NCBI GenBank assembly: GCA_022702045.1 | Contig: JAKONH010000267.1 | Coordinates: forward strand, 1-33,009 | Reading direction: 5' to 3' | From: Spirosomataceae bacterium | Lineage (GTDB): Bacteria; Bacteroidota; Bacteroidia; Cytophagales; Spirosomataceae | Length of the DNA stretch: 33,009 nt | In this document: positions 8,412 to 19,403 of the stretch, piece after piece | Layout of the letters: every line of letters begins with the position of its first letter | How positions within the stretch are numbered: position 1 is the stretch's first letter | Position numbers and translations under genes: made by a program | The notes under the pieces: generated by a model | The model's database searches: none | What the model was told of the DNA's origin: nothing | Seen by the model: only the letters and a program-made list of their open reading frames with translations

Positions 8412-8918
8412 ATGGCTGATATCAATCAGGTAAAAGAACTCGATACGCCGAACGATTTGGCGGAAAAAGGTCGGGAGAAAGTGGTCGATGCACTCAACAA
8501 ACTCGTTGCTGACGCATTCGCACTTTATATCAAAACGAAGAATTACCACTGGCACATGTCGGGACGGCATTTCCGCGACTACCATCTGCTGCTTGATGAG
8601 CAGGGCGATCAGATTTTCGCAACCATCGACCCACTGGCCGAGCGTGCCCGGAAAATTGGCGGTAATACCATCCGGTCGGTGGCGCACATTGCTCAGCTAC
8701 AGCGGGTGAAAGACAACGACGAAGACTTTGTGGCTCCAAAAGACATGCTGCTCGACCTGCTGAACGAAAATCGGAAGATGGCGAAAAACATGCGGGATAC
8801 GCACAAAATCGCCGATGATGCCGAGGACGTAGCGACGGCCAGTTTGCTCGAAAACTACATCGACGAAACCGAGCGTCGCAGCTGGTTCCTCTTCGAAACC
8901 ACGCGGGACATCAACTAA
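8412..8918 (+). CDS. dps: Dps/ferritin-like DNA-protection protein
   Basis: This 168-residue protein keeps the ferroxidase residues of Dps at the right spacing: His46 and Trp47 in KNYHWHM, His58, Asp62, Asp73 and Glu77. Dps dodecamers oxidise Fe(II) with peroxide, store iron and protect DNA in stress. Lysines are scattered through the N-terminus but there is no long basic tail, so DNA binding may be weak. The stop codon is followed within a few bases by a large repeat element that fills the spacer to the Nudix gene. Confidence 0.94.
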   Translation: MADINQVKELDTPNDLAEKGREKVVDALNKLVADAFALYIKTKNYHWHMSGRHFRDYHLLLDEQGDQIFATIDPLAERARKIGGNTIRSVAHIAQLQRVKDNDEDFVAPKDMLLDLLNENRKMAKNMRDTHKIADDAEDVATASLLENYIDETERRSWFLFETTRDIN

Positions 8919-8920
8919 AG

Positions 8921-9003
8921 TATTCAGTTTACGGTATTCAGTTTACGGTGTATCGGTCGTATCATAGTGCCTCCGAAAACTGTAAACTGAATACCGTAAA
9001 CTG
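8921..9003. repeat. 22-bp perfect inverted repeat containing tandem 14-mers
   Basis: TATTCAGTTTACGG occurs twice in perfect tandem at 8921-8934 and 8935-8948. The segment 8925-8946 is the exact reverse complement of 8982-9003, 22 bp, with a 35-nt loop. Each 14-mer is two heptads, TATTCAG and TTTACGG. The element fills nearly all of the space between the dps stop (8918) and the Nudix start (9011). It is the cleanest member of the family seen at 64-156, 762-820 and 9466-9576. Confidence 0.9.
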
Positions 9004-9010
9004 TTTTTAT

Positions 9011-9463
9011 ATGAAAGTACGGCCTTCTGCGCTGATCTGGCGCGTACAGAGTAGCCAGACCGAAGTGCTGCTGATGCGTTACTGCTATGGCGGTCAGGAT
9101 GTGTTTGCATTGCCCGGTGGTAACCCCGACCGGGGCGAGATCTTACCCGAAACGATCGTCCGCGAACTACAGGAAGAACTCGGCGTGCGCGTCGACGTCG
9201 GGGAGATGATTCTGGCCGGCGAAATGCTGCTGACCGAACGAAACGACGACGTCCTGCATGTCGTTTTTGCCGCCCGCAATCTTCAGGGAACCCCCGCACT
9301 GAACCCCGCTGAAACGTCGGCCCTCGAACTGGTCTGGAAACCTATTGCGGATTTATCACAACTCAATCTTTACCCCAACGTCGGTACCCGGCTTCTGCCG
9401 TGGTTCAGCAGTGCCACGTACCTAGGATACATCGGCCGTATCGAACAGCGGTACTTCGGTTAA
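9011..9463 (+). CDS. Nudix hydrolase
   Basis: This is a 150-residue Nudix protein with an intact box: Gly37, Glu43, then Arg51-Glu52-Leu-Gln-Glu55-Glu56-Leu-Gly58. The family hydrolyses nucleoside diphosphates linked to another group, with Mg bound by the box glutamates. The substrate cannot be read from the sequence. I chose the ATG at 9011 because the upstream in-frame sequence back to 8948 is translated repeat. The gene is bracketed by heptad-type inverted repeats on both sides. Confidence 0.9.
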   Translation: MKVRPSALIWRVQSSQTEVLLMRYCYGGQDVFALPGGNPDRGEILPETIVRELQEELGVRVDVGEMILAGEMLLTERNDDVLHVVFAARNLQGTPALNPAETSALELVWKPIADLSQLNLYPNVGTRLLPWFSSATYLGYIGRIEQRYFG

Positions 9464-9465
9464 GT

Positions 9466-9576
9466 GTTTTCGGTATTCGGTATACAGTTTACGGTTTCTC
9501 TAAGAATAAACCGGTTTTGACTCACTAACCTACTGAAAACTAAAGACTGTAAACCGAATACAGAAAACTGAATACC
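9466..9576. repeat. Imperfect inverted repeat made of 7-nt words, downstream of the Nudix gene
   Basis: The left part (about 9466-9497) contains stacked words CGGTATT, CGGTATA, CAGTTTA, CGGTTTC. The right part (about 9534-9576) contains GACTGTA, AACCGAA, TACAGAA, AACTGAA. Matching blocks include TATTCGGT (9474-9481) with ACCGAATA (9553-9560), and a TACAGT block with ACTGTA (9546-9551). The arms have drifted, unlike the perfect copy at 8921-9003. Confidence 0.65.
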
Positions 9577-9577
9577 A

Positions 9578-10765
9578 TCAATTGACCTCCAGCTCATCGC
9601 GACTGGGCAACTGCGGGAAGGGGGCATGGGGCTCGGTCTGGTACCAGAACACCGTACTGGCAACGTCGGAGCGTTGGGGGAGATAACGGCCTCCGTTGCG
9701 CCAGCCTAGGTCCTGAATCGTAACCCCTAGGTCTTTATCGAAGCGGATCGGGTCCATAATGTGCCAGCGATACATGCCAAACCGCTGCTGTGATTTATAG
9801 CTGCCGTCGGGTTTGACGACCTGATGCAAACCTGCGTAGGGTGTCGAAAACGGAACGTACTGACCACCCCGGTCGAAGTTGTAGGAGCCGCAAAAATAGT
9901 CTTCTGTACCGGTGCCGTTGATCGTCGGGAAGTTGGTGTCGCCGTCTATAAAGAACTTGATTTCACCTTCGCCCCACCAGCCCGTATTCGTGACACCCCA
10001 CGCCAGAAACGTCCCGACGTATTGGCCCTTGCCTTTGATACCGTCGACCAGCAGAATATCCTTTTTGTAGGTGTTCGGATTCGTTCGGCGGAATTGGGCG
10101 TGGAAATAGGCCATATCGTCGGGAACGTCGGTCAGCGTGTAGTCGACCTGGTAGTACAGATTCATCGGATCTTTATCGTTGATGTTCTGCATCGTGATAC
10201 GGCAGTGCTTGCGAAACGGCATCTGCCAGTAACAGTTGAACGCACTGCCCGGGTTGACGCTGACGGGTAGCGAATTTAGGGGCGCGTATTCACCCCAGCC
10301 CATCCCGAAAAAATCACCGACTGGCACTTCCACCGATGGCTGCTTTTCGTCGTCCCAGTAGATGCGCAGAATCGAGTAGCGCCAGTTACCGGTGGGTGTC
10401 ATCCAGATATGCTGAATAGCACCCGGCCCATCTACGTCGGCAAGCGTAAACGTTTCGCCCGGCTTGATACGAATAAATGGATTGACCTTCCAGCCCCGGC
10501 CCAGTTCACGGGCGGCATCTTTGGCGTTAGCGTGGTTCGGGCGCGTATCGGTCAACTCGTCCATACCACCTTTGCCTTTCTCTCCCGTAAAATTCTCCGG
10601 GCTGATCGACCGCGTCCGGGCGTTCGACAGCCGCGACAAATTGCCCAGATTCATGTCCAGCCCATTAAACGGACTGGACCGTTGCGCCCACGCGGAGCCA
10701 GCAAACGCCAGAAACAACAGTAAACCATACAGCGCTGTACGCATACAAGGAGTAGTTTGCTGCAT
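9578..10765 (-). CDS. Secreted GH172-family glycoside hydrolase (DUF2961)
   Basis: This 395-residue protein has a signal peptide at about residues 8-28 ending in AWAQ. It then carries the DUF2961 fold, now classed as GH172. Family landmarks are GAIQHIWMTP, the VEVPVGDFFGMGWGEY block, and NGTGTEDYFCGSYNF, which holds conserved acidic residues. GH172 members act on fructofuranose or arabinofuranose linkages, so the enzyme probably trims a furanose-containing glycan outside the inner membrane. The exact substrate is not deducible. The ATG at 10765 is preceded by a strong Shine-Dalgarno; a second ATG at 10744 would also leave a signal peptide. The gene is separated from the upstream peptidase by a terminator. 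Confidence 0.88.
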   Translation of the reverse strand: MQQTTPCMRTALYGLLLFLAFAGSAWAQRSSPFNGLDMNLGNLSRLSNARTRSISPENFTGEKGKGGMDELTDTRPNHANAKDAARELGRGWKVNPFIRIKPGETFTLADVDGPGAIQHIWMTPTGNWRYSILRIYWDDEKQPSVEVPVGDFFGMGWGEYAPLNSLPVSVNPGSAFNCYWQMPFRKHCRITMQNINDKDPMNLYYQVDYTLTDVPDDMAYFHAQFRRTNPNTYKKDILLVDGIKGKGQYVGTFLAWGVTNTGWWGEGEIKFFIDGDTNFPTINGTGTEDYFCGSYNFDRGGQYVPFSTPYAGLHQVVKPDGSYKSQQRFGMYRWHIMDPIRFDKDLGVTIQDLGWRNGGRYLPQRSDVASTVFWYQTEPHAPFPQLPSRDELEVN

Positions 10766-19330: not shown

Positions 19331-19403
19331 GCGGGAGTAGCTCAGTTGGTAGAGCGGCAGCTTCCCAAGCTGCAGGCCGTGGGTTCGAGACCCATTTCCC
19401 GCT
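19331..19403 (+). tRNA. tRNA-Gly (anticodon CCC)
   Basis: All arms fold. The acceptor GCGGGAG pairs with TTCCCGC (19396-19402, one G-U). The D arm is GCTC/GAGC. The anticodon stem GCAGC/GCTGC closes the loop TTCCCAA, giving anticodon CCC. The T arm GTGGG/CCCAT has the loop TTCGAGA. The discriminator is U, and CCA is not encoded. This tRNA reads GGG codons. It is a possible integration target for the phage-like gene immediately downstream. Confidence 0.95.

Follow-up and report, generated by a model that had tools for sequence, protein, structure and literature searches.

The window, the 33,009-nt stretch of DNA analysed here, carries two forward-strand genes separated by a 92-nt spacer: a dps-like gene (8412–8918; Ferritin domain match, PF00210; stop codon at 8916–8918) and, downstream of it, a NUDIX gene (9011–9463; PF00293; ATG at 9011). 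All but a few bases of this spacer belong to one repeat element. Exact string search found TATTCAGTTTACGG twice in tandem on the + strand, beginning at 8921 and at 8935; the pair forms the 5′ side of the element (8921–8948), which reads as the 7-nt words CAGTTTA CGGTATT CAGTTTA (CGGT..). Within this stretch, a script identified CAGTTTACGGTATTCAGTTTAC (8925–8946, +) as the exact reverse complement of a 3′ arm (8982–9003, +) that ends 7 nt before the NUDIX ATG. The arms enclose a 35-nt loop (8947–8981), which closely resembles that of the close relatives G055 and G158 and is predicted to form a small inner hairpin. A run of five Ts (9004–9008, +) abuts the stem and is absent from most copies tested in a T-run count across the family. 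The initial annotation had described the tandem pair, the perfect 22-bp inverted repeat and the nearly filled spacer, all of which our searches reproduced, and had argued that such a repeat is no accident; by simple arithmetic, the chance of a 22-bp perfect match within ~100 nt is indeed about 1e-9. It had also envisaged an RNA hairpin. Folded as single-strand RNA, 8916–9013 reaches a predicted −48.2 kcal/mol, compared with −15.7 ± 2.8 for shuffles (z −11.5; 0 of 200 as good), which supports the fold; RNA may be the working form of the element, although the wobble test described below detected no selection on an RNA strand.

Two other heptamer hairpins and a relative of theirs lie in the window. 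One, with imperfect arms at 9466–9497 and 9537–9568, was recognized by string search and reading of the locus in the convergent spacer between NUDIX and a DUF2961 gene (9578–10765). Another (62–155, with arms at about 62–81 and 124–155) emerged from string search and comparison with G055; by eye, with G055 as guide, it falls between a stop codon at 52–54 and an ATG at 168, and it was counted as genic, the gene caller having set the gene start at 78. A related hairpin of other heptamers, GTTTAAC words, occupies 756–829 (locus reading and G055 comparison), in a spacer that in G055 holds a CRGTWTW hairpin instead. The DUF2961 gene lies 3′ of NUDIX in the window, and the flanks behind NUDIX in G055 and G158 do not match it; the apparent edge of this rearrangement coincides with the 9466–9568 hairpin. 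The sole Rfam match in the window is a tRNA gene (19331–19403, + strand); Rfam 15 gave no match above gathering score on the elements in the window or in loci L124, L130, L131 and L143.

Searches of the window's genome, a 5.34-Mb draft (83% complete), revealed that the dps element has many siblings. The exact 14-mer occurs 14 times and its reversed control 0 times, and the family is also present in relatives, contrary to the outcome that the initial annotation had named as fatal to its proposal, a 14-mer confined to this spacer and missing from relatives. The proposed family of intergenic repeats made of 7-nt words was borne out as a genome-wide and mostly intergenic one; its unit is a degenerate heptamer, C-N-G-T-W-T-H, free at positions 2, 5 and 7, and not a fixed 14-mer. 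Two such heptamers in tandem match 308 times in this genome (23 for the reversed control) and three in tandem match 96 times (control 0). Eight CRGTWTW words account for 717 of the 797 array words collected from the window's genome (220), G055 (390) and G100 (187), the last taken as Larkinella humicola. An element consists of (word)n, a loop and (reverse-complement word)m in this order; forward words come first in all 45 two-sided clusters examined. Perfect runs of at least 22 bp, as in the dps copy, are uncommon among heptamer hairpins of the window's genome (2 of 30); G055 has them in 9 of 64 and G100 in 17 of 25.

The arms obey a grammar that pairing does not fully explain. When arms with exact words were scored against their partner arms, mismatches fell at positions 2, 5 and 7 in 116, 86 and 115 of 439 cases (26, 20 and 26%), and at positions 1, 3, 4 and 6 in 27, 4, 7 and 25 (6, 1, 2 and 6%). 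With mismatches concentrated at the free positions, the word frame persists where the arms no longer pair, an outcome for which neither neutral decay nor pairing alone accounts. In each of the three genomes, arms on average fit their own partners better than foreign arms (permutation p at most 0.0002; mean fit 25.1 versus 19.0 in Larkinella, 16.2 versus 13.8 in the window's genome and 16.4 versus 14.7 in G055, with array pairs that overlap or lie >140 nt apart excluded). In the window's genome, 36% of foreign arms fit equally well as the partner, and the fit is just modestly above the between-locus level, so that shared words account for much of the pairing. Two identical words stand side by side in 30 of 508 adjacent pairs, where shuffles predict 69 (z −5.3), a shortage at odds with the likeness to cyanobacterial heptamer tandem arrays that the initial annotation had drawn. 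The same shortage opposes microsatellite slippage as the sole source of words, with the proviso that perfect tandems may be lost faster. Orthologous arms differ by word-sized indels (7, 7 and 21 nt) alongside indels of other sizes.

The elements occupy a characteristic place relative to genes. Among 33 clusters on the first-fetched contigs of the window's genome, 30 were in spacers, 2 in called genes and 1 at a contig end; the corresponding count inside called genes was 6 of 37 in G100. In spacers of 35–320 nt, delimited with a simple home-made codon-usage gene caller, heptamer tags were present in 101 of 542 tandem spacers and 23 of 120 convergent ones but in only 8 of 127 divergent ones, and are thus rarer in the last group than in the other two combined (124 of 662; p 0.00025). 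Of 92 heptamer hairpins in tandem spacers, 79 lie nearer the stop codon and 12 nearer the next start, at a median of 3.5 nt from the stop (IQR 1–7 nt). The location recurs in roomy spacers: where at least 40 nt of the spacer was free, 21 of 21 were nearer the stop and 17 of 21 lay within 10 nt of it. Inverted repeats were found in 92 of 120 convergent spacers sampled. The heptamer class makes up 116 of 345 hairpin spacers sampled, a share that is inflated, since most stretches from the window's genome, G055 and G100 were picked for heptamer matches; only the G055 contig C20 (97 kb) and a G158 stretch (220 kb) were picked for synteny with the window, and these analyses leave out L244–L249 (G154) and many 3-kb loci.

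Comparison of relatives separated the history of the sites from that of their words. The NUDIX gene was found in 35 of 36 genomes of the genus, and 30 dps–NUDIX loci were read, including that of the window. A heptamer hairpin follows dps in three (the window's genome, G055 and G158); the remaining spacers differ, and at least a dozen of the 30 loci, read by eye, hold a GC-rich hairpin with a T-tract. Conservation is higher in the dps spacer than in its flanking genes (96 versus 91% between G055 and the window's genome; 92 versus 85% between G055 and G158). Since the loop of the dps copy is nearly identical in all three genomes, this copy would most simply have been inherited vertically. One pair of its stem reads G-C in G158, A.C in G055 and A-U in the window's genome; covariation was discarded as proof of an RNA, with one compensated pair in three species and no excess over shuffles (335/500). 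Other long intergenic hairpin repeats recur in the genus at the dps–NUDIX loci L144–L173, for example GTCATGCTGACGAAGGAAGCATCTT and AACACAGAGGCAC..., and look like further dispersed gene-end families.

Away from dps, orthologous sites often carry different words, sorted here into classes D1–D12 by string rules made for the analysis. Thirteen heptamer-hairpin spacers of G055 have a counterpart in the window's genome; this counterpart contains a hairpin of the same class in 5 cases, one of a different class in 4 and none by score cut in 4, some of the last resembling decayed hairpins under that cut (orthologs of L221 and L223). Six CRGTWTW spacers of G055 had an ortholog in G158, where four hold GTTTAAN words, one CACAGAG and one, at dps, the same words; all five non-dps sites compared there thus hold hairpins of other words. 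The presence of a hairpin is itself conserved. Orthologous spacers were found in the window's genome for 62 of 368 queried, and in G158 for 50. Between G055 and G158, hairpins were present in both for 14 spacers, in G055 only for 3, in G158 only for 0 and in neither for 33 (p 7e-10); between G055 and the window's genome the counts were 19, 12, 2 (the latter only) and 29 (p 7e-6). When only tandem and convergent spacers of 50 nt or more were counted, p was still 6e-8 (G158) and 6e-4 (window's genome). Hairpin sites thus persist between relatives while their words are often replaced, as seen in small numbers of sites, and the persistence may in part reflect spacer type.

Further short-word hairpins in the sampled spacers are spelled with TGAATGA, AAGAAGA, GTTGTAR, ACAGGATT, CACAGAG and other words. 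In G055 and the window's genome, the first word of some TGAATGA-type hairpins supplies the stop codon of the preceding gene (L223 at 13566; L107 at 3783). In Larkinella, heptamer stems are topped by a cap, GGCTGACGC...GCGTCAGCC, and in other Spirosomataceae the same cap tops stems of other words, several species having stems of their own words. TGACGC/GCGTCA marks the apex of 19 of 24 heptamer hairpins in G100 (0.9 expected), and the exact two-sided cap is present in 10 of 25, for example ...CGGTGGCTGACGCA – loop – TGCGTCAGCCACCG... Across the order, 10 of 192 genomes contain the exact two-sided cap (control 0 in all); eight of them belong to the family and have up to 65 copies, and the other two, from another family, have one copy each. 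Eighteen capped hairpins were read; the 17 that could be placed lie in convergent (10) or tandem (7) spacers, none farther than 22 nt from a stop codon. Exact search did not find the cap in the window's genome, and an apical TGACGC/GCGTCA was rejected as a feature of its copies (3 of 29, 1.3 expected; 6 of 58 in G055, 3.2 expected). An ACGGTGG stem end is common to 9 of 30 heptamer hairpins of the window's genome, 22 of 64 in G055 and 14 of 25 in G100; judging from this end and the shared words, the hairpins of the window's genome may be cap-less relatives of the capped ones.

The presence in relatives that the initial annotation had anticipated is real and patchy. Three words in tandem match in 60 of 150 Spirosomataceae genomes and 16 of 36 genera, very unevenly, compared with 17 of 150 genomes, at most 11 matches each, for the reversed control; within one genus the number ranges from 0 to 308. 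Across the phylum, 49 of 296 genomes contain three-word matches, mostly few, with G420 (67) and G168 (32) standing out, and many of the matches listed are arrays of one word. Four-word same-frame arrays occur in Desulfobacterales, Planctomycetales, Acidobacteria, Microcystis and others. That search returned at least 118 stretches, of which 80 listed ones were analysed; among the matches listed, 23 of 84 four-word clusters lie under an inverted repeat and 61 do not. Locus L314, from the Desulfobacterales bacterium HSG2 in an unrelated phylum, holds a giant inverted heptamer array of CGGTTTA/CGGTTGC words, with 129-nt arms and a 7-nt loop.

Together, these data indicate that the dps element is one copy of a large dispersed family of hairpin-forming intergenic repeats of Spirosomataceae, and our best reading is that such repeats serve, or are tolerated, as gene 3′-end stem-loops. 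We hold the functional version tentatively, as the leading possibility: the repeats would act as REP/BIME-like stem-loops of flexible sequence rather than as classical terminators. A role at gene 3′ ends is suggested by the place of the elements and the conservation of their sites. The stem-loop would belong functionally to the end of the preceding gene, with its spelling free to vary, and, much as has been proposed for REP/BIME elements, might shield the mRNA end and damp read-through or supercoiling between genes; new copies and spellings could spread by a copying or template-switching process. The stop-proximal location would also arise if harmful insertions elsewhere had been purged.

That last point leads to an alternative that we consider unlikely, yet worth serious weight, in which neither hairpin nor position has a function: as palindromic repeats that are selfish or arise purely by mutation, the elements would multiply by some DNA process and survive behind stop codons because an insertion does little damage there. 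The lack of RNA-strand bias, the uneven copy number within a genus and the near-identical loops with which capped hairpins recur in G068 all sit comfortably with it, and both the word frame and the number of copies point to copying. Selfish repeats would not be expected to keep their sites while their words change, or to begin so tightly behind stop codons even in roomy spacers, and no mobile gene was found. Y1_Tnp (PF01797) was the one protein candidate considered; among the 10 genomes searched it had 0 matches in the window's genome, 1 in G055 and 9 in G150, whose three-word matches (1) equal its control. In 20 loci read from 22 Y1 matches, a heptamer array lay on one side in 1 and on both sides in 0, and single cap-motif halves were seen in 4, the nearest about 770 nt away. 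An origin as a REP/RAYT system is without support, given no Y1_Tnp in the window's genome (83% complete) and no two-sided heptamer flanking elsewhere. The Y1 transposase genes at L385, L391, L394, L395 and L398 adjoin palindromes of their own that are unlike heptamer hairpins, and look like ordinary REP/RAYT pairs.

It is improbable that the elements are bidirectional factor-independent terminators whose stems are merely spelled in heptamers. The gene-end location, the rarity in divergent spacers, the GC-rich hairpins with T-tracts in the same dps spacer of other species and the TTTTT behind the dps stem would all suit terminators. So would a partial exclusion with tight-loop hairpins, which we took for ordinary terminators: these accompany a heptamer hairpin in 3 of 92 tandem spacers versus 46 of 450 spacers without one (p 0.043), with no significant exclusion in convergent spacers (4 of 21 versus 29 of 99, p 0.43). 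However, a T-tail (at least 5 Ts in the 8 nt behind the stem) follows just 4 of 86 heptamer copies, to be read against a weak control of 6 of 36 tight-loop hairpins, low partly because A/T tails of two-way terminators were counted into the stem. Mismatches in tandem spacers bear no RNA-strand signature, with sense-strand G.U wobble and A.C at 80 and 86; other long-loop hairpins gave 115:127, whereas in tight-loop hairpins wobble prevails at 33:13 (p 0.0045; 9:1, 16:6 and 8:6 in the individual genomes). In stems of at least 25 pairs, single pairs may matter little, so that this test is compatible with an RNA role. Heptamer stems also begin 3.5 nt past the stop versus 16 nt for tight-loop hairpins (n = 37), and in the copy at L122 (1553–1703) an entire tight terminator-like hairpin is nested inside the loop. 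A terminator scan of 8880–9620, which allows loops of 3–8 nt and to which long loops are invisible, found none. Few T-tracts, the absent wobble bias and the short stop distance thus disfavour a classical intrinsic terminator for the family; that terminators keep some weight, and the gene-end reading is held no more firmly, reflects the weak T-tract control and a scan blind to long loops.

A more radical idea, which we also rate as improbable, is that some machinery writes or rewrites stems at fixed post-stop places in a lineage-specific word alphabet under the shared cap, the place being inherited and the spelling replaced; if true, such a hairpin, fixed in position but with stems of exchangeable short words, would represent a new type of genome element. 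Least probable, and doubtful, is that the two arms array a 7-bp double-stranded-DNA protein site (CRGTWTW, for an insulator, gyrase or a nucleoid protein) in inverted orientation, with arm pairing left over from their origin: the frame kept where pairing is not, the strand symmetry of the mismatches and the binding of gyrase and IHF by E. coli BIMEs speak for it, but orthologous sites often carry other words, which is incompatible with a fixed site, and arms fit their own partners better than others.

Of the known systems, intrinsic terminators share with the gene-end stem-loops favoured here a hairpin behind the stop codon and differ in that heptamer hairpins have few T-tracts, a long loop, A/T-rich stem words and no wobble bias. 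The heptanucleotide STRR sequences of filamentous cyanobacteria have the same 7-nt period and consist of head-to-tail copies of one identical unit, whereas identical neighbours are under-represented in heptamer hairpins (by genome, 7/135, 15/247 and 8/126, versus 16.2, 31.9 and 21.4 in shuffles). REP and BIME elements are palindromes scattered through gene 3′ spacers and scarcer in divergent ones, the REP unit being a 20–40-nt palindrome with a conserved GTAG tetranucleotide. Heptamer hairpins differ from them in having no fixed stem sequence, a word grammar, locus-specific loops and no RAYT link that we could find. Dispersed stem-loop repeat families are known in bacteria (Cozzuto 2008, PMC2267715), and they and REP/BIME elements resemble heptamer hairpins as dispersed palindromes of gene 3′ spacers that are rarer in divergent spacers. 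The spacers of one genome hold many similar stem-loops, and we file the heptamer hairpins as a variant of such dispersed repeats, itself undescribed in the literature searched: searches for intergenic heptamer repeats, extragenic palindromes, Bacteroidetes terminators and cap or CACAGAG strings turned up no description of heptamer-word hairpins. As relatives use other spellings at the same sites, the family offers a way to test whether the end of a bacterial gene requires a hairpin irrespective of spelling, and which process spells it. The nearest relative in form may be the TAACTGA direct repeats of marine Beggiatoaceae, some Cyanobacteria and five Bacteroidetes (MacGregor 2015, PMC4679880). 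They are likewise short intergenic arrays of a 7-nt word, in many copies and patchy across phyla; they use one fixed word, mostly just upstream of start codons in the main genome and with no predicted fold, whereas heptamer hairpins have variable words and inverted arms and follow stop codons (79 of 92 nearer the stop, 12 the start). Through the same-frame arrays of other phyla, heptamer hairpins may also tie together separate accounts of heptamer arrays between the genes of unrelated bacteria.
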